Below are positions 5,622 to 44,345 of a stretch of DNA of 49,449 nt, piece after piece. The DNA lies in NCBI GenBank assembly GCA_022844405.1, contig JALHLV010000026.1, positions 1-49,449 of the forward strand. Direction: 5' to 3'. Both the position numbers and the translations under genes were made by a program. Each line of letters begins with the position of its first letter. Within the stretch, counting starts at the first letter, position 1. The notes beneath the pieces were generated by a model. The model did not search any database and had not been told where the DNA came from. It saw only the letters and a program-made list of their open reading frames with translations. The stretch is from Sphingomonadales bacterium. Its GTDB lineage: Bacteria; Pseudomonadota; Alphaproteobacteria; SMXS01.

Positions 5622-5639
5622 TGTCATCCCATGTTGACA
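5622..5639. promoter_or_regulatory. PpsR/CrtJ operator over the crtI start codon
   Basis: The sequence TGTCATCCCATGTTGACA matches the PpsR/CrtJ consensus TGT-N12-ACA exactly, and the arms TGTCA and TTGACA are close to a full palindrome. The crtI ATG (5631) lies inside the site. A bound PpsR dimer could therefore block either a promoter just upstream or elongation of transcripts arriving from bchIDO. Confidence 0.7.
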
Positions 5640-7169
5640 CTCGACCCTGCTCAGTCCGCCGCTCGGCCCGATCGCGATGACCGACGGCACGCCATCGTCA
5701 TCGGCAGCGGCTTTGGTGGCCTCGCTGCGGCCGTGAGGCTGGGGGCCAGGGGATATCGCGTCACCGTGCTGGAGCGCCTCGATGCCCCTGGCGGCCGCGC
5801 CTACGTGTATCGGCAGGACGGGTTCACCTTCGATGCTGGTCCAACCATCATCACCGCGCCCTACCTTCTCGAAGAGCTCTGGACGCTGTGCGGCAGACGA
5901 ATGGCAGACGACATCGATCTTCGCCGAATTGACCCGTTTTACAGAATTCGCTTCGATGACGGCAGCGTCTTCAGCGCCAGCAGTGATCATGCGGCAATGC
6001 GCGAAGAGGTTGCCCGCTTCGATCTTGGCGACGTTGCGGGCTTTGAACGTTTTCTGCGTGACAGCGAGAAGATCTACGAAACGGCTTTCGAGAAGCTCGC
6101 CGATCAGCCATTTCACCGTATCGGGACCTTGCTGAAAAGCGCGCCGGATCTCATCCGGCTTGGCGGCTACCGCTCAGTCTTCAGCCACGTGTCGCGCTAT
6201 TTTCGAAACGAGAAGCTCCGGATCGCTTTCAGTTTCCACCCACTTCTGATCGGCGGCAATCCGCTGTCCACCACAGCCTATTACAGCCTTGTGGGACATC
6301 TGGAGCGTACGCACGGCGTGCACTACGCCATGGGCGGCACAGGCGCGCTCGTCGATGGTCTTGTCCGGCTGATCGAGGGGCAGGGCGGTGCGCTGCGGCT
6401 GAATGCCGAAGTCGCGCAGATCACGGTCTCCTCCCGCCGTGCGACCGGCGTGCGGCTCGCGTCAGGGGAGCACGTCGCCGGTGATGTCGTGGTTTCGAAC
6501 GCCGATGTTGGCTGGACCTACACCCAGCTGCTTTCCGAGCACAAGCGGCGCCGCTGGACTGACCGGAAGTTTGCCGGCAAGCGCTTCTCGATGAGTCTTC
6601 TGGTCTGGTACTTCGGCACCAACCGCAGGTTCGATGATGTCTATCACCACACGATGGTGCTCGGTCCCCGCTATGAAGGGCTTCTGCGAGACATCTTCTA
6701 TCGCAAGATCCTGGCGAGAGACCTCAGTCTCTATCTGCATAGGCCAACCGCAAACGATCCGTCGCTAGCCCCGGCTGGTTGCGACGCCTTCTATGTCCTT
6801 GCGCCTGTACCTCACCTGGGCAGTGGTACCGATTGGGGCGAGGAGGGGGAACGGTGTCGCGCGATGATTCAGGCGCGCCTCGAGGAGACGCTTCTACCCG
6901 GACTCGGCGAAAGCATCGTTACCTCCCGCATGCTCACGCCTCAGGACTTTCGCGATCGTCTGCTATCGCTCAATGGCAGCGCCTTCTCGCTGGAGCCACG
7001 CCTTTTCCAGAGCGCCTGGTTCAGGCCACACAATGTCAGCGAAGAGATAGCCGGCCTCTACATGGTGGGCGCCGGTACCCATCCCGGTGCCGGCGTCCCG
7101 GGGGTCATCTCATCGGCGCGTATTCTCGACAAGGTCGTGCCTCACGCCGGTCGGGTTGTGGCTGGCTGA
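5631..7169 (+). CDS. crtI: Phytoene desaturase
   Basis: FAD-dependent, membrane-associated desaturase that converts phytoene to neurosporene or lycopene. The N-terminal dinucleotide fold is IVIGSGFGGLAA with GSGFGG at residues 25-30, followed by VTVLERLDAPGGRA. The C-terminal bacterial phytoene dehydrogenase signature is LYMVGAGTHPGAGVPGVISSA. The 512-aa length is standard. The initiating ATG is the only reasonable start ahead of the Rossmann motif, although it lies inside a PpsR-type operator and has no good Shine-Dalgarno sequence. Whether it makes three or four double bonds cannot be read from sequence. The presence of crtC, crtD and crtF implies an acyclic spheroidene or spirilloxanthin route. 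Confidence 0.96.
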   Translation: MLTLDPAQSAARPDRDDRRHAIVIGSGFGGLAAAVRLGARGYRVTVLERLDAPGGRAYVYRQDGFTFDAGPTIITAPYLLEELWTLCGRRMADDIDLRRIDPFYRIRFDDGSVFSASSDHAAMREEVARFDLGDVAGFERFLRDSEKIYETAFEKLADQPFHRIGTLLKSAPDLIRLGGYRSVFSHVSRYFRNEKLRIAFSFHPLLIGGNPLSTTAYYSLVGHLERTHGVHYAMGGTGALVDGLVRLIEGQGGALRLNAEVAQITVSSRRATGVRLASGEHVAGDVVVSNADVGWTYTQLLSEHKRRRWTDRKFAGKRFSMSLLVWYFGTNRRFDDVYHHTMVLGPRYEGLLRDIFYRKILARDLSLYLHRPTANDPSLAPAGCDAFYVLAPVPHLGSGTDWGEEGERCRAMIQARLEETLLPGLGESIVTSRMLTPQDFRDRLLSLNGSAFSLEPRLFQSAWFRPHNVSEEIAGLYMVGAGTHPGAGVPGVISSARILDKVVPHAGRVVAG

Positions 7170-7193: not shown

Positions 7194-8714
7194 TCAGGAG
7201 CTGCCGACCGGAAGCCGTATCGGCCGATTCCGATGTCGGGCGGCGCCGAAATCGGCCAATAAGCGGGCCGCAGCGAGGCGCCCCGACATCGTCGCCATCG
7301 GAACGCCTGGGCCCGGATGTACGCTGCCGCCAGCCAGGTAGAGGCCCGGCAACCTGCCGCGCGAACCCGCGCGGGCGAAACTGCCCATCATGCCGTGGTT
7401 GGCGCGGCCATAAAGGGCGCCGCCCGTGGCCGGAAAAAGCGCATTGAAGCCACTCGGTGTCGTAACCACTGGGTCAGAGGCCGCTCTCACGTTGAGGCCA
7501 CAGGCGCGAACCAGGCCAAACGCACGCTCGGAAAGATCAGCAATCGCTGCCTCATCGAGCGGCGCGCGGTCACCTTCGGCGGGTGCGTTGATCAGGGCGA
7601 GAAGGCGTTCCGGCGTGCCGGGAACAAACGCGCCAGCCTCGCCCCGGTCCTGCGCGCAGATATAGACAGTTGGTGCAGCTGTGATCTCGCGACGCCGAAA
7701 CACGGAATCAAACTCGCGAGCGTAGTCCTCTGCAAAGAACACATTGTGATGCGCAAGCTCAAAGCCCTCGGTTCGCGCTGACAGGCACCAGGTAACTGCC
7801 GACAGCGAGCGATCGCGCGGGGCCGTCGCCGGTGCAGGGCGCTCCCTGGCTGTCAGAGCGGAGATGTCGCCATTGAAGACCACCGCATCTGCGTTCAGGC
7901 GCTCGCCATTCGTCAGCTGGATCCCGACAACGCGCCCGTGTTCGACAACCATGTGCCGCATCTCGGCCCCGAACCGGAATTGCGCGCCATGGCGCTCCGC
8001 CAGGCTCTGAACCGCGCGCGCGACCTGATGAATGCCACCCTTGACCAGCCACACCCCGTCTTGCTCGACATGGGCAATCAGCATCAGCGTCGCCGGGGCA
8101 GCCCAGGGGGAGGCGCCGACATACGTCGCATAGCGGCCAAAGAGCTGGCGCAAGCGGGGGTCCTGGAAATGATCGCCAAGTGCGCTCCATAGGGTTCGCA
8201 TCGGCATCGTTCGCCACAGGTCCGGCAAGCCCCCAACACCGAGGCTTGCCACGAGGCTTGCCGGGGAGGGCCGCTCGGAGGCGATGAAGGGTCCAGCAAG
8301 CGTGCGATAGATTGCTCGACTCTGCTTGCAGAACGCCAGATAGGCGCTGGCCGCCGCTGGTCCCGAAAAGGCCCCGATCGCGTCAGCTGACCGCGTGATG
8401 TCCGCGAACAGGTCTAGTCTGCCGCCTTCGCGCCATGCGTGTCGCGCGAGTGTCTCGGCGGGCATCAAGCCGAGGCGATCATCCAGCTGCTCGCCCGCGT
8501 CGTTGAACAACCCCTCGAAGATCCATCGCATCGTGAAGACGGTCGGGCCTGCATCGATTGCAGCGCCTCCAACAGCGACCTGCCGCATCTTCCCGCCAGG
8601 CGCGGCAGCACGTTCGCAGACGATGACCTCCATTCCGGCTCGCGCCAGATCGGCGGCCGCCGCCAGGCCACCCATGCCAGCGCCGACGACAATGACGCGA
8701 CGACCGAGGCTCAC
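7194..8714 (-). CDS. crtD: 1-hydroxycarotenoid 3,4-desaturase (methoxyneurosporene dehydrogenase)
   Basis: CrtI-family flavoprotein that introduces the C-3,4 double bond into 1-hydroxy (or methoxy) acyclic carotenoids after CrtC. It begins VIVVGAGMGGLAAAADLARAG with GAGMGG near residues 11-16. It ends with LYLAGGSVHPGPGVPMATMSG, the signature of the CrtD/CrtI superfamily. I chose the GTG at 8714, which overlaps the stop of the upstream membrane-protein gene as GTGA and has GAGGG just before it; this gives 506 aa. It is the second gene of a minus-strand operon led by that membrane protein, convergent with crtI. Confidence 0.92.
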   Translation of the reverse strand: MSLGRRVIVVGAGMGGLAAAADLARAGMEVIVCERAAAPGGKMRQVAVGGAAIDAGPTVFTMRWIFEGLFNDAGEQLDDRLGLMPAETLARHAWREGGRLDLFADITRSADAIGAFSGPAAASAYLAFCKQSRAIYRTLAGPFIASERPSPASLVASLGVGGLPDLWRTMPMRTLWSALGDHFQDPRLRQLFGRYATYVGASPWAAPATLMLIAHVEQDGVWLVKGGIHQVARAVQSLAERHGAQFRFGAEMRHMVVEHGRVVGIQLTNGERLNADAVVFNGDISALTARERPAPATAPRDRSLSAVTWCLSARTEGFELAHHNVFFAEDYAREFDSVFRRREITAAPTVYICAQDRGEAGAFVPGTPERLLALINAPAEGDRAPLDEAAIADLSERAFGLVRACGLNVRAASDPVVTTPSGFNALFPATGGALYGRANHGMMGSFARAGSRGRLPGLYLAGGSVHPGPGVPMATMSGRLAAARLLADFGAARHRNRPIRLPVGSS

Positions 8715-9484
8715 CGCGAGGGAGGGTCGGATGCCCGCGCTGTGCGCCGCCCCAGCTGGGGCCAGATGCTCAGCCCCGCCTTCAGATCGATCCGGATGCG
8801 GTGATAGATGATGAGCGACAGCCCGACGCAGAGTGGTATGGACCACAGGACCGGATGCAGCGCCAGCGATGGGGCGAGGCGTATCGAGCCAAACGCAAGG
8901 AACGCAGTGTAGACGGAGATCCCAGCGCCCACCAGCGCCTTCAGATGCTCCTTCATCCACTGCACCGGGCTCGGGTTGCGTGCATAGATGAAGCGGAGGT
9001 TGGTGACGCCCGTCGCCAGGCCGACGATCGAAAGGCCGATCATCAATGGCTGACCGATCAGCACGCCCTCCCATGCGCAGACCGCAGCAGCCAGGAGGAC
9101 GAGGTACTGCAGTCCAATATTGAGAGCAGTCCGGTTGGCGGCGAGGTCGCGCCGGTTCGTTACGCACAGCCATCCGTACCAGCCAAGGTTGACCGTAAGA
9201 ATGCCATTGTGAAGCATCAGCCAGCCGAAGATCCCGCGGACAAACGGCTCGTCGAACCTGCCCACGAGAAGAGGGTGCACGCCCATTGGATCATAGAGTG
9301 TCAGCAGGCTCATCGCGATCGCGAAGGAGCCCGTAAGCAAAACGCACCATGTGAAGATGCGGCCCCACCTGCGATGATTGATGCCGCCTTTTCGCCCCAG
9401 GACAGGCACCCAGAACGCCAGGGCCGCAGCAGATCCTGTAATTACATGCACGAAGATGAGCCCGTGGAATATTGCCAGCTCCAT
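8711..9484 (-). CDS. Polytopic membrane protein of unknown function, coupled to crtD
   Basis: A 257-residue, strongly hydrophobic protein with about seven predicted membrane helices, beginning LAIFHGLIFVHVITGSAAAL. The cytoplasmic loop RKGGINHRRWGRIFTW resembles the H-R-x-x-G-R segment of DUF2306-type membrane proteins, but I assign that family only tentatively. GGAGAAG lies about nine bases before the ATG at 9484. It is the first gene of a two-gene operon with crtD (GTGA overlap) and is divergent from the cytochrome P450 gene, with an exact PpsR operator between them. The context points to carotenoid or pigment metabolism in the membrane. No catalytic motif is evident, and it does not look like CruF or CrtA. 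Confidence 0.75.
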   Translation of the reverse strand: MELAIFHGLIFVHVITGSAAALAFWVPVLGRKGGINHRRWGRIFTWCVLLTGSFAIAMSLLTLYDPMGVHPLLVGRFDEPFVRGIFGWLMLHNGILTVNLGWYGWLCVTNRRDLAANRTALNIGLQYLVLLAAAVCAWEGVLIGQPLMIGLSIVGLATGVTNLRFIYARNPSPVQWMKEHLKALVGAGISVYTAFLAFGSIRLAPSLALHPVLWSIPLCVGLSLIIYHRIRIDLKAGLSIWPQLGRRTARASDPPSR

Positions 9485-9537: not shown

Positions 9538-9555
9538 TGTAAAGTTATGTGTACA
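9538..9555. promoter_or_regulatory. PpsR/CrtJ operator between crtD operon and P450 operon
   Basis: TGTAAAGTTATGTGTACA is an exact TGT-N12-ACA match in the short divergent spacer between the membrane-protein/crtD operon (start 9484) and the P450 gene. The inner bases are less palindromic than in the other sites of this window, so affinity may be lower. It could repress both directions under aerobic or high-light conditions. Confidence 0.6.
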
Positions 9556-9584
9556 CCTTCGGGGTCAGAGGTGCGCGTCAAACG

Positions 9585-10994
9585 ATGCAGGCTGTGGCTG
9601 GAATTCCTGACGCAGGGCGAGGGCTCTATGCGCCGCCTAGGCCGGTGGCGCGACCTGCATTGCTGGCGCTGCTGCATGCTGCGCTGCGCGGCGATGGCGA
9701 TCTTCTCAGCCTGCTCCCAGCCAACGCCTATCGGATGGAGATAGGGCCCCTCGGTTACTCGCGCCGCTCCATCCTGATCGTCAATCGCCCCGATCAGGTG
9801 CGCCGTGTCCTGTCTGATCCCGAAGGCATCTTTCCCAAGAGCGATCTCATGGTCGCAGCTCTGGCGCCGCTGATCGGCGATTCGCTCTTTGTGTCCTCAG
9901 GCGACACCTGGTGCCGCCAGCGACGGATGATCGATCCTGCATTCACGATGATGCGGGTCAACCGCGCCTTCCCTTCGATGCTTGAGGGCGCTCAAGCCTG
10001 TCAGCAAAGCTTCGATGCCCATGCAAGAGATGGCGTTGCTTTCTCGCTTGATCTCGCGATGAGCCATCTCACGGCCGATATCATTTGCCGCACCGTTTTC
10101 AGCGCCAGCCTTGAAACGAGGGCGGCCCATGAGGTCTTCGCAGCCTTCACGACGTTCGAACGCAGCGTCGCTCAGGTGGAGATACGTCGCCTGATAATGG
10201 ACCGGGCCTGGACGAGTGTCCCGCAGCGCGATGATGTCCTCCTGGCCTGCAATACAATTCGGCGGCACCTCGGCGATCTGCTGGACACACATCTTGGTCC
10301 AGACGGCGCGCGGTTTGATGACATTGCCTCCTCGGTGATCACCGCGCGCGACGACTTCACCCGCACGGCCTTCAATCGCGAGGAGCTCATCGATCAGCTG
10401 GGCGTGCTCTTCCTTGCGGGCCATGAGACGAGCGCGAGCGCGCTCACCTGGGCTTTCTTCCTGCTGGCTGAGCAACCCGACCTCGTCGCGCGCGTGCGAG
10501 CTGAGATCCGCAAGGTGGTGGGTGATGGCGAGCCGCTCACCATAGAGGCCACCAGGCATCTGCCCCTGACCCGCAATGTCTTTCGTGAAACGCTAAGACT
10601 CTATCCCCCGATCACCTTCCTCCCGCGGGTTGCGACCGCTCCCACAACCATCGGGCGACATCAGGTCCGTCGCGGTGCGCTCGTCATGGTTGCGCCCTGG
10701 GTATTGCACCGCCACGCAAGCTACTGGCGCAACCCGCATGTCTTTGATCCGGATCGCTTCCTGCCGGAGCGCGAGGCCGAGCTGACCTCAGGCGCCTATA
10801 TTCCGTTTGGCCTTGGTCCCCGCGTCTGCGCGGGCGCAGCCTTTGCTCAGACCGAGGCGGTGCTGTTGATTGCTGAAATGTTTCGCCGCTTTGATTTCCA
10901 TGTTGTCGATCCAGCGCGCGTGCGTCCAGCGGCGCGCCTGACCACCCGTCCAACCGAACAGATCATGATGCGCGTGACTCGCGCAGACGCATGA
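9585..10994 (+). CDS. Cytochrome P450 of the photosynthesis gene cluster
   Basis: Heme-thiolate monooxygenase of 469 aa from the ATG at 9585. An in-frame ATG at 9549 would add 12 residues but lies inside the PpsR operator; neither start has a good ribosome-binding site. With the 9585 numbering, the I-helix oxygen-activation motif AGHETSAS is at 278-285, the K-helix ExxR (ETLR) at 335-338, and the heme-binding loop FGLGPRVCAGAAFA has its cysteine ligand at 415. All key residues are intact. There is no membrane anchor; the N-terminal YAPPRP segment resembles soluble bacterial P450s. The end overlaps the ATP-grasp gene (ATGA). The substrate is unknown. A carotenoid is likely from position between crtD and crtB and from the shared operator. 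No dedicated ferredoxin or reductase gene lies nearby. Confidence 0.95.
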   Translation: MQAVAGIPDAGRGLYAPPRPVARPALLALLHAALRGDGDLLSLLPANAYRMEIGPLGYSRRSILIVNRPDQVRRVLSDPEGIFPKSDLMVAALAPLIGDSLFVSSGDTWCRQRRMIDPAFTMMRVNRAFPSMLEGAQACQQSFDAHARDGVAFSLDLAMSHLTADIICRTVFSASLETRAAHEVFAAFTTFERSVAQVEIRRLIMDRAWTSVPQRDDVLLACNTIRRHLGDLLDTHLGPDGARFDDIASSVITARDDFTRTAFNREELIDQLGVLFLAGHETSASALTWAFFLLAEQPDLVARVRAEIRKVVGDGEPLTIEATRHLPLTRNVFRETLRLYPPITFLPRVATAPTTIGRHQVRRGALVMVAPWVLHRHASYWRNPHVFDPDRFLPEREAELTSGAYIPFGLGPRVCAGAAFAQTEAVLLIAEMFRRFDFHVVDPARVRPAARLTTRPTEQIMMRVTRADA

Positions 10995-12151
10995 CCACAG
11001 TGCTGCTCACGCTCGGCCGCCTTCCCAAGGCGCTTGACCTGGCGCGCGGTTTCAGTCGCGCAGGATCTCGCGTAATCGTGGCCGATCCCTTTGGCTGGAC
11101 GCTGACGGGCGCATCGCGCCACGTCGCCCGCGAGTTCGCCGTGCCCCCGCCGAGCAAGGGGTCTGCTGAATATCTCGCCGCCCTCGCGGAGATCGTCGCA
11201 CGCGAACACGTCGACATCGTTGTGCCTGTCTCCGAGGAGACGATGCATGTTGCCTTCCTGCCTGACTTGCTCGGCGGGCGCGCCCGTGTCTTTACCATGC
11301 CGCCCGATCGCGTGCTTTCCCTTCACAACAAGGCGGGATTTGTCCGCGCGGCGACTGCGATGGGCCTTCCCGTACCCGAAACCTGCCTACTCGGCGCGCC
11401 GGAGGCGAAGGCGCTGGCATCGGCCCACGCTGTGGTCGTGAAACCGGTCTTTTCATGCTCGGGACGTGGTGTGCGCATCCTGGGTCAAGGCGCTGCCCTG
11501 CCGGATGCTGATCCATCGAAGCCGGCCATTGTGCAGCGGTTCATCGCGGGCCGCGAGCACAGCAGCTGTACAATCGCGCATGAAGGCCGGGTCGTCTCCA
11601 CGATGATCTATCGTGGCACTGTCATGTCAGGATCTGTCGCGATCGCGTTCGAACGGGTCGAGGCGCCGGCGATTGAGCGCTGGATCGAAAGTTTTGTCCG
11701 TGCATCGGGCTGGACAGGATTTATCTCCTTCGATTTCATTGTCGACGCCGATGACTGCGTGTTTGGTATCGAATGCAACCCACGAACAACGAGCGGACTT
11801 CACTTCTGGCGTTCCGAGGACGTCGCTCGCGCCGTTCTCAGTCCCCAGACGAGCCCGCCAGTCGGAGTGCGTCGGCACAGCAACCTGCAGCAATTCTACT
11901 CCTGCCTTACTGAAACACAGATGGCGATGTTTCGCGGCCGAGGCTTTCTTCACCGGTTGGGTCGGCTCGTTGGCACGCGGGATGTCACATGGGACTGGCG
12001 CGACCCCTGGCCATTCCTCAGCATGACCCTGACGTCCTGGCCGATCATCCGCATGGCAGTTTCTCAGGGCGTCAGCTTCGGGGAGGCGGCAACGCATGAC
12101 GTTGGCTGGTACGAACAGGCCGCCAACGCGCCCGATGCTCAGCCGTCGTGA
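10991..12151 (+). CDS. ATP-grasp ligase-like protein, coupled to the P450
   Basis: A 386-aa ATP-grasp enzyme (carboxylate-amine/thiol ligase superfamily, carbamoyl-phosphate-synthase-like). The N-terminal Rossmann-like domain (1-105) is followed by ATP-binding lysines in LHNKAGF (K114) and VVVKPVFS (K151), a glycine-rich loop CSGRG (156-160), the hinge VQRFIAGRE, and the metal-binding IECNPRTTSG (E261, N263, R265). The C-terminal extension (about 300-386) is rich in tryptophan and proline (TWDWRDPWPF) and may contact membrane or a hydrophobic substrate. Translation is coupled to the P450 by ATGA at 10991-10994. The family joins a carboxylate to a nucleophile through an acyl phosphate. Substrate and product are unknown. 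It is not a purine, biotin or peptidoglycan enzyme by context. Confidence 0.85.
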   Translation: MTTVLLTLGRLPKALDLARGFSRAGSRVIVADPFGWTLTGASRHVAREFAVPPPSKGSAEYLAALAEIVAREHVDIVVPVSEETMHVAFLPDLLGGRARVFTMPPDRVLSLHNKAGFVRAATAMGLPVPETCLLGAPEAKALASAHAVVVKPVFSCSGRGVRILGQGAALPDADPSKPAIVQRFIAGREHSSCTIAHEGRVVSTMIYRGTVMSGSVAIAFERVEAPAIERWIESFVRASGWTGFISFDFIVDADDCVFGIECNPRTTSGLHFWRSEDVARAVLSPQTSPPVGVRRHSNLQQFYSCLTETQMAMFRGRGFLHRLGRLVGTRDVTWDWRDPWPFLSMTLTSWPIIRMAVSQGVSFGEAATHDVGWYEQAANAPDAQPS

Positions 12152-12591
12152 TCGCGACAGCGGTGGCGACATGCGCGGTGCGATCGTCGATGCCCGTCAG
12201 GGTGTCGCAATTTCGAGGCCCGCACGGAAAGGTCATGGATCGCCCTGTATGGTGCATGGATTGCGCCGTATCGCTCGCTCCTTGGTTGTAGACAGGGTTC
12301 TCTGCATGCGCGCCCAGGGCGCTTGCTGACATAGCGCTTGCGCGGAGAAGAGACAGGCAATTAGTCTCCAGAAATGTTGGATGCTGAGCCTGTTGAGGCC
12401 CTCGCGAATTTCGATCCAGGCATGTCCCTGTGCGCGCTGGCCGTTGCGGACTGGGGTTTCTCTCTGCAGCGGGGGCCAACTGGCCGGCGTGATGATGCTG
12501 GCCGGCTATCGTCTCGACGCCCTCGTTACCACCTGCGCGGCTCTGTCGAGCGCGCTGTCCTGCGCCCTTCCTGTTGAGCCGGAGCTGCTCC
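12152..12591. other. 440-bp region between ATP-grasp gene and crtB without a recognisable gene
   Basis: No conserved product, terminator or exact TGT-N12-ACA operator is apparent. Short open frames exist on both strands but none has a convincing ribosome-binding site or family motif. A 9-bp direct repeat (CTGGCCGGC at 12480-12488 and 12498-12506) with an 18-bp period lies near the 3' end. The promoter for crtB presumably lies here, unless crtB is read through from the P450 operon. Confidence 0.5.
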
Positions 12592-13644
12592 ATGCGTCCC
12601 AACGTGCGCAAACCCGAACGTGCGACGCCTGCTGACCTGGCGACTTGCCGGCAGATGATCCGCACTGGTTCTCGCTCATTCTTTGCCGCGTCGCTGCTCC
12701 TGCCCGATGCTGTACGTGGAGGGGCCTACGCCCTTTATGCCTTCTGCCGTCTGTCGGATGACACCATCGACGTGGACCATGGCGGCGAAGCGGGAATCGC
12801 GCGGCTCGCCTCTCGCCTCGATGCAATTTACGCTGGTGAGCCAGCCAACGCCGCAGTCGACAGGGCGCTGTTCGACGCTGTCGATCAGTATGCGCTGCCG
12901 CGTGCGCCGTTCGACGCACTTCTGGAGGGCATGGCGTGGGATGCCTCCGGGCGGGAATATGAAACGATCGAGGACGTATATGACTATGCGGCGCGTGTCG
13001 CAGGCGCGGTCGGTGCGATGATGGCGGCGCTGATGCGGACGCGTTCGCCGGAGATGGTTGCGCGGGCGTGCGATCTGGGCGTGGCCATGCAGCTGACGAA
13101 CATTGCGCGGGACGTTGGTGAGGATGCGCGCAATGGCCGTCTATATCTCCCTCGCGCCTGGATGCGCGAGGCTGGCCTTGACCCTGTTTCGTGGATGGCG
13201 CGTCCAGAGTTCAATCGCGAGATAGCGGGGGTCGTGGAGCGCGTACTTGAGCGCGCCCTTCAGCTTTACCAGCGTGCCGATCTTGGTATCGCCGGGTTAT
13301 CCCGCGCCTATCGCCCAGCGATCCATGCAGCGCGGCTTCTCTACGCCGATATCGGAGCCCGCGTCGCAATGCGCGGTCATGACTCGGTGTCCAGCAGAGC
13401 GATCGTGCCGACGTCTCGCAAGCTGCAGCTCCTGATGAAGGCGCTGACACGCTCGTGGCGGGCGCCGCCAAGCGCGGAGCTGGCAGCGCCTGCGCTGTCG
13501 CAGAACCAGTTTCTTGTTGATGCCGTTGTCGCTGGAAGTGGCACACACGATGAGCAGGATTCAGCGCGGGGCCTGCAGCACGATATCAGGTGGGTGATCG
13601 AGTTGTTTGCAGCGCTCGACGAGCGGCCCCGACGGTTGACCTAG
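12592..13644 (+). CDS. crtB: Phytoene synthase
   Basis: Head-to-head condensation of two geranylgeranyl diphosphates to 15-cis-phytoene. The two aspartate-rich substrate-Mg sites are visible: FCRLSDDTIDVDHG (about 50-63) and TNIARDVGEDARNGRLYLP (about 163-181). The 350-aa length counts from the ATG at 12592, which has GGAG seven bases upstream; a TTG six codons earlier is less likely. Unlike the common crtI-crtB pair, here crtB is separated from crtI by about 5.4 kb containing crtD and the P450/ATP-grasp genes. Confidence 0.96.
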   Translation: MRPNVRKPERATPADLATCRQMIRTGSRSFFAASLLLPDAVRGGAYALYAFCRLSDDTIDVDHGGEAGIARLASRLDAIYAGEPANAAVDRALFDAVDQYALPRAPFDALLEGMAWDASGREYETIEDVYDYAARVAGAVGAMMAALMRTRSPEMVARACDLGVAMQLTNIARDVGEDARNGRLYLPRAWMREAGLDPVSWMARPEFNREIAGVVERVLERALQLYQRADLGIAGLSRAYRPAIHAARLLYADIGARVAMRGHDSVSSRAIVPTSRKLQLLMKALTRSWRAPPSAELAAPALSQNQFLVDAVVAGSGTHDEQDSARGLQHDIRWVIELFAALDERPRRLT

Positions 13645-13694: not shown

Positions 13695-14729
13695 TCAAGG
13701 TCGGCCGGCGAGGCGCGGCATGCGAAAGGGAAGCATCGCGCGCACGACGGGATTGCTGATCCGATCCAGTGACAGTGTCTCGTGCATGATGTCTGCCGGC
13801 GCGCCGTCGACTTGTCCTGCAAGATGCGATCGGGCGTAGAACGGGGCATCCTCGAGCACGCGCACAAGCCTTGGCCCCGTTCCGCGATCGCCGCGAGCCG
13901 TGGGCTGCATCCCCCAGAAGGTTTTCGGCATCCTGGTCAGCGGCGGGGCGTGGATGGCGATATCTTCGCCGGTTGAATCGAATTTCAGCGCAAGGGATCG
14001 TTGTTCGCCATTCCGGAGCGTGACGTCATAGTAGACGATTGTCGCATCGTCGGCGACGTGGGAACGCGACCAGTCCCAGGAACGGAACCTGCGTTCGAGT
14101 GGTTCGTCGCCGCAGTTGCTGTCGAAATAGCCCTCTCCATTCCACGATGTACCGTCTTCGAACTTCACTGCGACGCGTCCACGTGGAGCGATTGGTCGCC
14201 ATACATGGCGGGCTTCTGCGTCCAGCGCGAACGTCTGGCCCGCGAGATAGTAGGGATGCAGCGTCACTGTCCCGCGGAGTCGGGAGGGTAGGGGGGCTGT
14301 CCACTCGTCGACGTTGATGCGAAGTGTTTCGCTCTCCCAGCTCATGCTGCTGCGGCTGATCGCGATCCTGTCCGAGTCGCGATCGAGGCTCCTGTGACCG
14401 CGTTCGGTCATCGCCCAACGATTTCCCCTGACCGAATAGAGTGCGACATTCATGGCGCAATGGTTTTCGGGATGCCGCCACCCCGACCATGCGTAGTAGG
14501 GCGAGAAAACACTGCCGATGAAGGCGATGATTGTGAGACCATGCTGTTTGTCTTCGCTGAGCGCGTCGATGTACCACCAGGCATAGCCGCCTGATCCGAC
14601 TGGAATGTCGAAGCGCGGTGCAGGAAGTCTGTTGCCAGGAGCAGGCGCACGCCAGTGAGATCCCGCCCCGCCGGTTTCGTTCAGGAACTCCGTCGACTTA
14701 ACCGCGCGGGCGGTTGGTTGGTCGTTCAT
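13695..14729 (-). CDS. crtC: Carotenoid 1,2-hydratase (hydroxyneurosporene synthase)
   Basis: Adds water across the C-1,2 double bond of acyclic carotenes, starting the spheroidene/spirilloxanthin branch. Recognised by the CrtC core (GGYAWWYIDALS..., FIGSVFSPYYAWSGWRHPENHCAMNVALY split over about residues 47-98) and WDWSRSHV further on. It is 344 aa from the ATG at 14729, which has GAGG about nine bases upstream. A TTG two codons earlier is an alternative. The ATG overlaps the stop of an upstream minus-strand reading frame (ATGA), see 14726-15109. It is convergent with crtB; a 50-bp gap separates the stops. Confidence 0.95.
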   Translation of the reverse strand: MNDQPTARAVKSTEFLNETGGAGSHWRAPAPGNRLPAPRFDIPVGSGGYAWWYIDALSEDKQHGLTIIAFIGSVFSPYYAWSGWRHPENHCAMNVALYSVRGNRWAMTERGHRSLDRDSDRIAISRSSMSWESETLRINVDEWTAPLPSRLRGTVTLHPYYLAGQTFALDAEARHVWRPIAPRGRVAVKFEDGTSWNGEGYFDSNCGDEPLERRFRSWDWSRSHVADDATIVYYDVTLRNGEQRSLALKFDSTGEDIAIHAPPLTRMPKTFWGMQPTARGDRGTGPRLVRVLEDAPFYARSHLAGQVDGAPADIMHETLSLDRISNPVVRAMLPFRMPRLAGRP

Positions 14730-15109
14730 GCCCAACGCCTCGCCTTCGACACGGGAAGCTGCGCGTCCGTTCGCGTGAGCGCTGGGCGTCTTCTTCCCGC
14801 CTGCGCCATGTCCAGTTCACACTCGCGCAGGTGGCTGAACATCGTCATCCCGCGTGGAGCGGGATCAGCATTTGCGAGGTCGTGAGTATGCTCGCTCGCG
14901 AGGGCGGATTTGACGAAGCCGCGTTGACCCGGTGAATGGCTCAGGCGCCGGCGGGCGCTGAGAGCCCCCATCCCGGCTGTGCTGTACGCGCCCGCCGGAG
15001 GCATCCCGCGCCTCTCCACTTTGATCGCACGGACGTGACAGCCCGGTGCATTAGCGGTCGCCAGTTCCTGAAGTCCGCCACCCTGAAGGGTGGCGCTGTC
15101 GTTGATCAT
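14726..15109 (-). CDS. Possible small protein upstream of and overlapping crtC
   Basis: A 127-residue reading frame (start MINDSATLQGGGLQELATAN) with a good Shine-Dalgarno sequence (GAGGA, about five bases before the ATG) and an ATGA overlap with the crtC start. Coupled overlaps of this kind are the rule for real genes in this window. It also lies directly downstream of the PpsR operator at 15146 in the crtC direction. Against it, the composition is rich in Ala, Arg and Gly, there is no recognisable domain or membrane segment, and GC-rich DNA yields many such frames. It could be a true small gene, a translated leader for crtC, or chance. Confidence 0.35.
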   Translation of the reverse strand: MINDSATLQGGGLQELATANAPGCHVRAIKVERRGMPPAGAYSTAGMGALSARRRLSHSPGQRGFVKSALASEHTHDLANADPAPRGMTMFSHLRECELDMAQAGRRRPALTRTDAQLPVSKARRWA

Positions 15110-42914: not shown

Positions 42915-44345
42915 ATGGCGATCTATTCATCTACCCAGGGTCGTGTCGAACCAAGGTTCGCACGCGACACTTTGGGGGCGCTGGACGCCCGGATCGCCGC
43001 AAAGGTGGCCGCAGCTGGCGGTGACGTCGCGATGATCATCGATCGCAGCGGCTTCATCCGGGACATGGCGCTCAATAACAGCGACATGGTGCAGGACGGT
43101 TTTGAATCCTGGCTGGATCGCCGCTGGGCCGACACGGTCATGGCCGACAGTCGCCCCAAGATCGAAGAGCTGCTTCGCGACGCGGCCAACGACGCTGGCC
43201 CCCGCTGGCGCGAGATCAATCATCGCACGGACGACGGTGCGGCCGTCGCTGTTCGCTACATCGCAATGAATGCCGGCGAAGACGGCCGCATCATCGCGAT
43301 CGGCCGCGACCATCGCGCCATCAGCCAGCTTGAGCAGCGTCTCATCCAGGCGCAGCAGGCGATGGAGCAGGACTACCGAAAGCTTCGCGAAGCCGAGTCA
43401 CGCTACCGCCTCCTCTTTCAACTCGCGTCGGAAGCCGTCATCGTGGTTGATGCGACAACACGAAGGATTGTCGAAGCCAACCCAGCCGCCGATCGGCTTG
43501 TCGGCAGCGCAGAATCCTCGCTGGTCGGCCGCGAGTTTTCGTCTACCTTCGAAGAACAATCGCGCGACGCCGCCATTTCGCTTCTGGCGGTCGCGCAGGG
43601 CGGCCCGAACCTCACAGCGCAGTCCACCCTGCGCCAGGGCGGCCGCGCATTTGAGGTCGCTGCATCGCTCTTCCGGCAGGACCGTGCGTCTCTTTTCCTC
43701 GTCCGTCTGTCTTCGCCCGAATTGGGTGTCATACGCACCCCGGAATCAACCCAGCATCTTCTTTCCGTGCTGGAGCGCATTCCTGACGCATTCGTCGTCA
43801 CCGACGAAAATCTCCGTATCCTTGCCCAGAACGCCGCCTTCCTTGACCTGTCACGCATCGCCAGCAACGAGCAGGCAAGAGGCATGTCGCTCGACACAAT
43901 TCTTGGCCGGCCGGAGATCGACCGCAACGTTCTGCTCTCAAGCTTGCGCCAGCACGGATCGCTGAAGAACTTCGCGACTGTCTTGCGCACGCGTCTGGGC
44001 GAGCAGGAAGATGTCGAGGTTTCGGCCGTGCATGTCGCCACAGGCGAACAGCCCTGTTTCGGGTTCTCGATTCGCGCTGCCGCCCGCGGTGCCGTCGCCA
44101 GGCCGCGCATCGCGGGCGAGCTGCCGCGCTCGGTTGAGCAGCTTTCGCAACTGGTTGGCCGCGTCTCGCTCAAGGAACTCGTACGGGAGACCACCGAACT
44201 TGTGGAGCGTTTGTGCATCGAGGCTGCTCTTGAGCTGACAGGCAACAATCGCGCGTCCGCGGCCGAGGTTCTGGGCGTGAGCCGCCAAAGCCTTTACTCG
44301 AAACTTCACCGCTATGGCTTGGGTGATCTGGCAGCGGGCGAGTAA
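42915..44345 (+). CDS. ppsR: PpsR/CrtJ transcriptional repressor
   Basis: Master aerobic repressor of photosystem genes, 476 aa. It contains an N-terminal PAS-like domain, then a linker helix with a Q-rich coiled stretch (about 135-160), two PAS domains (about 165-265 and 285-390), and a C-terminal Fis-type helix-turn-helix, ELTGNNRASAAEVLGVSRQS. Only two cysteines are present: Cys381 (GEQPCFGF) and Cys434 at the beginning of the HTH domain (ERLCIEAAL). The latter fits the redox cysteine of CrtJ/PpsR; the cysteine expected near residue 250 is absent. It starts 36 bp after ppaA and probably shares its promoter. Operators of the expected type lie throughout the window. Confidence 0.96.
   Translation: MAIYSSTQGRVEPRFARDTLGALDARIAAKVAAAGGDVAMIIDRSGFIRDMALNNSDMVQDGFESWLDRRWADTVMADSRPKIEELLRDAANDAGPRWREINHRTDDGAAVAVRYIAMNAGEDGRIIAIGRDHRAISQLEQRLIQAQQAMEQDYRKLREAESRYRLLFQLASEAVIVVDATTRRIVEANPAADRLVGSAESSLVGREFSSTFEEQSRDAAISLLAVAQGGPNLTAQSTLRQGGRAFEVAASLFRQDRASLFLVRLSSPELGVIRTPESTQHLLSVLERIPDAFVVTDENLRILAQNAAFLDLSRIASNEQARGMSLDTILGRPEIDRNVLLSSLRQHGSLKNFATVLRTRLGEQEDVEVSAVHVATGEQPCFGFSIRAAARGAVARPRIAGELPRSVEQLSQLVGRVSLKELVRETTELVERLCIEAALELTGNNRASAAEVLGVSRQSLYSKLHRYGLGDLAAGE

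Follow-up and report, generated by a model that had tools for sequence, protein, structure and literature searches.

The carotenoid pathways of purple bacteria are commonly pieced together from a small set of crt enzymes. Here, we report a three-gene module, encoding a cytochrome P450 (P450), an ATP-grasp ligase and a predicted membrane protein, that lies among the carotenoid genes of a 49,449-nt stretch of DNA from a Sphingomonadales bacterium (contig JALHLV010000026.1 of assembly GCA_022844405.1; the whole stretch is hereafter termed the window). The module is widespread and previously undescribed in the open-access literature searched: that search, which did not cover subscription papers or preprints, found no account of a P450 gene paired with an ATP-grasp gene among genes for carotenoids or photosynthesis. 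On balance, we think it probable that the module tailors carotenoids, with the P450 oxygenating an acyclic carotenoid made by CrtC and CrtD and the ATP-grasp enzyme joining the product to a small molecule, under PpsR control in the window as well as in certain other lineages. The named genera that carry the module make this missing carotenoid-tailoring step open to direct test, and the module might bear on the polar carotenoids of aerobic phototrophs.

Architecture of the module

The module consists of two genes on the forward strand and a third that diverges from them across a shared promoter region.

9585..10994, forward strand: cytochrome P450 of the carotenoid-linked clade, 469 aa (PF00067 240.1 bits, cut-off 22.8; tree clade 100/100)
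10991..12151, forward strand: ATP-grasp ligase, 386 aa (PF02655 39.5 bits, cut-off 23.2; AlphaFold2 (AF2) model)
8711..9484, reverse strand: predicted membrane protein, 257 aa (adjoins the P450 gene in 79 of 80 loci; AF2 model with seven long helices)
9538..9555, no strand: predicted PpsR/CrtJ-type operator TGT-N12-ACA in the shared divergent promoter (exact sequence match)

The first protein belongs to the cytochrome P450 superfamily: it lies above the gathering score of PF00067 and contains the I-helix threonine, the ExxR motif and the heme-ligand cysteine, and its AGHET, ExxR and heme-loop cysteine are invariant in a 36-row alignment of orthologues. The longest open reading frame starts at a GTG at 9549 and would overlap the operator, so the ATG at 9585 is the likelier start. 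The protein scores below the cut-off of every curated NCBIfam P450 family (best 164.9 bits against a cut-off of 700). Searched against the PDB, its profile finds LUT5 at the top (239 bits), followed by a putative P450 (206 bits) and cholesterol 24-hydroxylase (190 bits), and a single-sequence search again places LUT5 first (168 bits); carotene epsilon-monooxygenase ranks seventh by profile (174 bits) and ninth by single sequence. We take LUT5 to be CYP97A3 and carotene epsilon-monooxygenase to be CYP97C1. Family-level identity among CYP proteins is about 40%. No relative was detected in viral contigs, and a plasmid collection held six P450 records at E ≤ 1e-60, all below 60% identity.

The second gene encodes a member of the ATP-grasp superfamily, identified by its PF02655 score above the cut-off together with its fold and conserved residues. 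K151, D248, E261 and N263, which we take to be ATP/Mg residues typical of ATP-grasp enzymes, are invariant in a 39-row alignment. The AF2 model, with a predicted local distance difference test (pLDDT) score of 93.6, superimposes on 2pn1 over 280 aligned residues (Z 26.0, root-mean-square deviation 2.9), and 2pn1, GAR synthetase, PurK and biotin carboxylase all match at Z 23–26; its top Foldseek matches include PylC and two L-amino acid ligases. These fold matches of a predicted model do not single out a nucleophile for the enzyme. The protein lies under the cut-off of NF005315 (PRK06849), with 257.5 bits against 406.

The 257-aa protein is a predicted membrane protein, with an AF2 model (pLDDT 91.9) of seven long helices; crtD lies closely downstream of its gene on the same strand. 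H13, H70, E179, H180, K182 and R202 are invariant across 40 rows. It scores below the gathering score of DUF2306 (PF10067; 15.1 against 31.6 bits), and its fold has no standout match in the PDB: the sequence search gave none at E ≤ 10, the best Foldseek match has an E value of 0.062, and the best VIA match of the model (117 residues, Z 8.8) is no better than the tool's chance range for helical matches. An assignment of its role from fold was dropped because the sequence, Foldseek and VIA matches are all undistinguished.

An earlier note made from the letters of this DNA without database searches (the original prediction) had described an intact P450 overlapping an ATP-grasp gene by ATGA behind an exact TGT-N12-ACA operator. 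PF00067, PF02655 and the sequence itself confirm the pair, and the operator is where it was said to be, as a candidate PpsR site. The pair had also been placed between crtD and crtB, which holds as a position within the carotenoid genes, but crtD is not directly adjacent: between it and the P450 gene lies the 257-aa gene, a third member of the unit that had been overlooked.

Conservation and gene company

To place the module in other genomes, we used a four-row P450 alignment to search genomes, each species being represented by one, so that loci were picked solely by P450 similarity; the contig scan requires one of two short peptide patterns. The scan returned 229 P450 relatives, and the module counts cover the best 80, in which neighbours were located by tblastn of the window proteins and both full 10-kb flanks are present in just 48. 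The ATP-grasp gene adjoins the P450 gene in all 80 loci and the membrane gene does so in 79; L050, which lacks it, is a contig of 5.4 kb in which the P450 match begins at the extreme end. Carotenoid genes occur in 79 of the 80, this short contig again being the one without. At a threshold of 40% identity, 47 loci carry bch or puf genes (48 if no threshold is applied), leaving 33 with no such gene in the sequence examined, 32 of which (all but L050) still show carotenoid genes. Five Novosphingobium loci (L051–L053, L055 and L056) have full 10-kb flanks that contain carotenoid genes and no bch or puf genes; thus, carotenoid genes, rather than bacteriochlorophyll genes, are the constant company of the module.

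The arrangement of the genes is also conserved. In 78 of 80 loci, the P450 and ATP-grasp genes run in the same direction (the exceptions are L110 and L113), and in the 74 same-strand loci with both ends placed, the two genes overlap by exactly 4 bp in 47 and lie within 8 bp in 68. This count omits L048, L084 and L112, where the ATP-grasp gene extends past the contig end, the two opposite-strand loci, and L115, where the P450 start is unplaceable. Within 150 bp of the membrane gene, the left neighbour is crtD in 55 of 79 loci and crtI in 19 (74 together). A second, more distant crtD-like gene (44–50% identity) adjoins crtC in L059, L062, L086, L088, L091 and L108, all of which keep a separate crtD beside the membrane gene.

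The module spans alpha-, beta- and gammaproteobacteria, the last being bins so labelled, and its named carriers are Roseococcus, Rubritepida, Paracraurococcus, Falsiroseomonas, Roseomonas, Novosphingobium, Rhabdaerophilum and Methyloversatilis. Two public bins with bch and crt genes are labelled Klebsiella pneumoniae (L107) and Rhizobium sp. Q54 (L069), and these labels are probably wrong.

We also searched 385 genomes of the class, scoring only the best four or five candidates per genome, so that a gene not found is not proven absent. The P450 is present at E ≤ 1e-150 (at least 50% identity) in four genomes (G000, G104, G113 and G136), the next match having 38% identity. Photo_RC occurs in 26 of the 385, and all four P450 genomes are among these; the probability of this by chance is 1.7e-5, or 2.5e-4 without the window. 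The best four candidates of each of the remaining 22 Photo_RC genomes include no P450 match at that level, and the same holds for G001, a phototroph of the window's family. Thus, possession of this P450 is by no means general among phototrophs. In the window's genus, the best few candidates of G003–G005 yielded neither a reaction centre nor the P450. Taken with the 80 of 80 and 79 of 80 counts for the ATP-grasp and carotenoid genes, the phototrophy of all four P450 genomes bears out the co-occurrence with photosynthesis clusters that the original prediction had offered as a check.

Strong matches to the membrane protein occur in three of the 385 genomes (G000, G136 and the phototroph G153), with two further weak, short ones, and the neighbourhood of the 38% identical relative in G153 holds no match to the window carotenoid proteins. 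ATP-grasp matches at E ≤ 1e-20 occur in four, of which the three besides the window are 30–32% identical and have neighbourhoods (L124–L126) with no match to the window carotenoid proteins. The plasmid collection held 24 ATP-grasp records, all below 60% identity. Among five of these that were inspected (29–38% identity), a KASIII-type gene, an NAD(P)-dependent oxidoreductase gene and an MBL-fold hydrolase gene adjoin in all five, an annotated F390-/CoF-synthetase-like gene is present in four and an annotated GNAT protein in three; of the other two records, that of Pontibacillus shows none and that of Roseateles has unnamed genes there. Such plasmid clusters (L162–L166) recur in Bacillota and Pseudomonadota, and L124 and L126 resemble them by eye.

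Surrounding cluster and operator

The window contains a large photosynthesis gene cluster that encodes bchI, bchD, bchO, crtI, crtD, crtB, crtC, crtE, crtF, bchC, bchX and bchZ and also, among others, pufL, pufM, puhA, bchH, bchF, ppsR and bchP; bchI, bchD, crtE, crtF and bchC were named from domain matches and position. The features nearest to the module, and the regulator gene, are as follows.

7194..8678, reverse strand: crtD (NF045637 635 bits, cut-off 580; start approximate, near 8680–8700)
12574..13644, forward strand: crtB, phytoene synthase, right flank (PF00494 224 bits; NF045921 379 bits, under its cut-off of 500)
13695..14735, reverse strand: crtC, carotenoid 1,2-hydratase (NF045922 285 bits, under its cut-off of 400)
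5631..7169, forward strand: crtI, phytoene desaturase family (TIGR02734 623 bits)
42915..44345, forward strand: ppsR regulator gene (TIGR02040 444 bits)

The exact TGT-N12-ACA lies 29 bp upstream of the P450 ATG, and the window holds both this operator and a gene for PpsR, as expected of a member of the PpsR/CrtJ regulon. There are nine such sites in the window against 4.3 expected, and since two of 100 shuffles held as many, the single operator in the window is weak evidence. Across the orthologous promoters (the gap between the membrane gene and the P450 gene), an exact TGT-N12-ACA occurs in 23 of 79 against 1.2 expected from mononucleotide shuffles. The 79 include the window's own promoter, and the other 78 contribute 22 of the 23; L115 is again omitted, as is L050, whose contig lacks the membrane gene. 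Close relatives have sites in common, so there are fewer than 23 independent cases. Because of these shared sites and the 56 of 79 promoters with no exact site, the pattern suggests PpsR control in the window and some other lineages.

Evolution of the module

To trace the origin of the P450, we built a maximum-likelihood tree of 51 sequences, comprising the window, 22 of the 80 module loci, three basal P450s and 25 of 26 outgroup P450s (the remaining outgroup, L028, was left out because the heme motif is missing in its stretch). The carotenoid-linked P450s form one clade against the 25 others with support of 100/100, within which G113, G104 and G136 branch off in that order before all 23 module rows (100/99). 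In G113, the P450 gene lies beside crtA, between bchI and crtI/crtB, and is followed by a GMC oxidoreductase gene (PF05199) and an ADH-like gene, as if the P450 made an alcohol for further oxidation. In G104 it is beside crtA, with no other carotenoid gene match in 18 kb, and in G136 it is beside bchI, with the membrane gene and without the ATP-grasp gene. The full order in G113 (L123, 7698–15610) is crtA, P450, a 141-aa protein, GMC oxidoreductase, the ADH-like gene (assigned by eye), crtI and crtB, with bchI adjoining.

No ATP-grasp gene was found at E ≤ 1e-20 in G104, G113 or G136, so the P450 does not always need one, and no membrane gene was found at E ≤ 1e-6 in G104 or G113. CrtA (NF045923, E ≤ 1e-10) is found in none of 23 module genomes (the window's own and 22 hand-picked from the 80 loci) and in two of the three P450 genomes without the module (G104 and G113, not G136). 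This distribution suggests stepwise growth, in which a P450 first associated with crtA would have gained the membrane protein and then the ligase, with loss of crtA; each basal branch is represented by a single genome, so this is an outline only. We considered whether the P450 is simply a replacement for CrtA; a replacement may have occurred, but both are present in G104 and G113, so there was no simple swap. The original prediction, which held that standard clusters carry crtA or nothing at this position, was too simple: the module is widespread, and the basal P450 adjoins crtA in two genomes.

Proposed function and alternatives

In the mechanism that we propose, the P450 would use O2 to oxygenate a carotenoid of the acyclic spirilloxanthin series, made by CrtC and CrtD, at an end group, with a carboxylate as the most likely end product. 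The genes for the two enzymes are usually coupled, and the ATP-grasp enzyme would turn a carboxylate into an acyl phosphate, which would then be joined to an amine-bearing partner; the result would be a polar carotenoid conjugate. The gene for the membrane protein is probably co-transcribed with crtD, and its product may act in substrate presentation, electron transfer or membrane placement of the conjugate. Two observations favour a carotenoid as the substrate: the neighbouring carotenoid genes, and the first rank of LUT5 among the PDB matches of the P450. The original prediction was that the P450 may oxidise an acyclic carotenoid (or the bacteriochlorophyll side chain) to an acid, which the ATP-grasp protein may conjugate with an amine or another nucleophile; the neighbours and the LUT5 match speak for the substrate, and the ATP-grasp fold and invariant residues speak for the enzyme class, whereas the oxidised group, the ligation partner and the coupling itself are what we infer. 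A carotenoid acid joined to an amine seems to us the better candidate, with an ester on a carotenoid hydroxyl as its main rival.

Several findings weigh against this proposal. No pigment data showing such a conjugate were found for any carrier. The PDB match of the P450 to LUT5 is at superfamily level only, and in the single-sequence search the putative P450 7wzl is a close second (162 against 168 bits), with steroid and drug P450s next. The ATP-grasp relatives on plasmids sit with KASIII genes, and therefore ancestry implies no carotenoid acid. Three of the four P450-bearing class genomes have no close ATP-grasp gene, 149 of the 229 P450 relatives fall outside the module counts, and most promoters lack an exact operator. 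The pairwise distances of the three module proteins correlate (r 0.83–0.86 over 75 loci), which speaks for the proposal, but this comparison has no control gene.

The ester version would have the P450 yield a hydroxyl only and the ATP-grasp enzyme activate a small carboxylate, such as an amino acid, to esterify it, so that the carotenoid is the nucleophile. Hydroxylation is the usual P450 reaction and is that of the best PDB match, PylC and the L-amino acid ligases among the Foldseek matches fit such a donor, and ester-forming ATP-grasp enzymes exist (D-Ala-D-Lac ligases and graspetide ligases). However, most ATP-grasp ligases form amides or thioesters, and nothing in the analysis fixes the acyl donor; we regard this chemistry as rather unlikely, although it deserves serious attention. 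A substrate other than a carotenoid, namely bacteriochlorophyll or its tail, a quinone or another membrane lipid under the same regulation, would agree with the bch or puf genes in 47 of 80 loci and with bchI being the neighbour of the P450 gene in G136 and lying close by in G113. It agrees poorly with the 32 loci that have carotenoid genes and no bch or puf gene, including the full-flank Novosphingobium loci, with crtD or crtI close to the membrane gene in 74 of 79, and with two of three basal P450s adjoining crtA and a carotenoid P450 as the best PDB match, and we consider it improbable.

Photosynthesis clusters are transferred as blocks, and G003–G005 of the window's genus show, among the best few candidates scored, neither reaction centre nor P450, as would be seen if the genes were passengers, that is, a conserved oxidation and ligation unit unrelated to pigments and moving along with carotenoid or photosynthesis genes. 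The recurrent promoter operator, the frequent translational coupling and the persistence of the module across alpha-, beta- and gammaproteobacteria, in whose clusters the gene order varies, argue otherwise, and we give this explanation little credence. Finally, the module could make the Roseococcus C30 carotene-dioate by C3–C4 bond cleavage of a C40 carotenoid: R. thiosulfatophilus has the module (L108 and L153), and a C30 carotenedioate and its diglucosyl ester have been reported in this species (PMC12654162, available in part). A separate R. thiosulfatophilus cluster (L152, 6310–15873) encodes two CrtI-family proteins, an acyltransferase, a GT2 protein and a squalene/phytoene synthase, with an aldehyde dehydrogenase gene about 1.5 kb further on. 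This gene content makes it the probable C30 carotenoid cluster and source of the reported glucosyl ester. Because this cluster can account for the pigment without the module, the pigment is no evidence for the module; the link was dropped, and we think it very improbable indeed.

Returning to the acid–amine proposal, a broader reading is that the photosynthetic pigments of many aerobic anoxygenic phototrophs include a class not yet described, in which an acyclic carotenoid oxidised by the P450 is ligated by the ATP-grasp enzyme to a nitrogen-bearing molecule, on a pathway built stepwise on a crtA-linked P450 by addition of first the membrane protein and then the ligase. We put this forward tentatively, as a possibility that we would not yet bet on.

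The accessible text of a 2023 review states that nothing is known of the genes or enzymes for rhodopinal, glycosylation or fatty-acid esterification, and mentions P450 twice, in general terms or to say that CrtA is not one (PMC10604819). In the portions accessible, 'P450' does not occur in PMC12654162, and neither 'P450' nor 'ATP-grasp' occurs in PMC10715153 or PMC8776678. A figure legend on phototrophy-gene loss in Citromicrobium has 'cytochrome P450' among its numbered genes (PMC3338782, in part), a possible trace of the module P450. Elioraea tepida produces spirilloxanthin (PMC8781829, in part). Two module carriers, R. thiosulfatophilus (L108) and Paracraurococcus ruber (L090), have a light-harvesting complex 1 (LH1) blue-shifted to 856 nm (PMC12654162); with two species, this may be coincidence.

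Comparison with known systems

The P450 of the module resembles the plant carotenoid ring hydroxylases LUT5/CYP97A3 and carotene epsilon-monooxygenase/CYP97C1 in that these are its best and a high-ranking PDB match, respectively. In contrast to this P450, which neighbours genes for acyclic carotenoids, the CYP97 enzymes belong to the plant plastid and act on cyclic end groups, and the match is one of superfamily. CYP175A1 of Thermus is a bacterial carotenoid P450; it appears in the PDB list (1n97) at 92.7 bits, a far weaker match than LUT5.

The ligase shares its fold over most of its length with PylC, GAR synthetase, PurK and the L-amino acid ligases, but at 10–19% identity and with enzymes of unrelated substrates. 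The ATP-grasp proteins of the plasmid KASIII/NAD(P)-oxidoreductase/MBL clusters are among its closest sequence relatives in the plasmid collection and differ from it in gene company.

A further parallel is with CrtA, spheroidene monooxygenase, which likewise carries out O2-dependent tailoring of acyclic purple-bacterial carotenoids (PMC10604819, in part). Unlike the enzyme of the module, CrtA is not a P450 according to the same source; it is found in none of the 23 module genomes, and its gene neighbours that of the basal P450 in G104 and G113.

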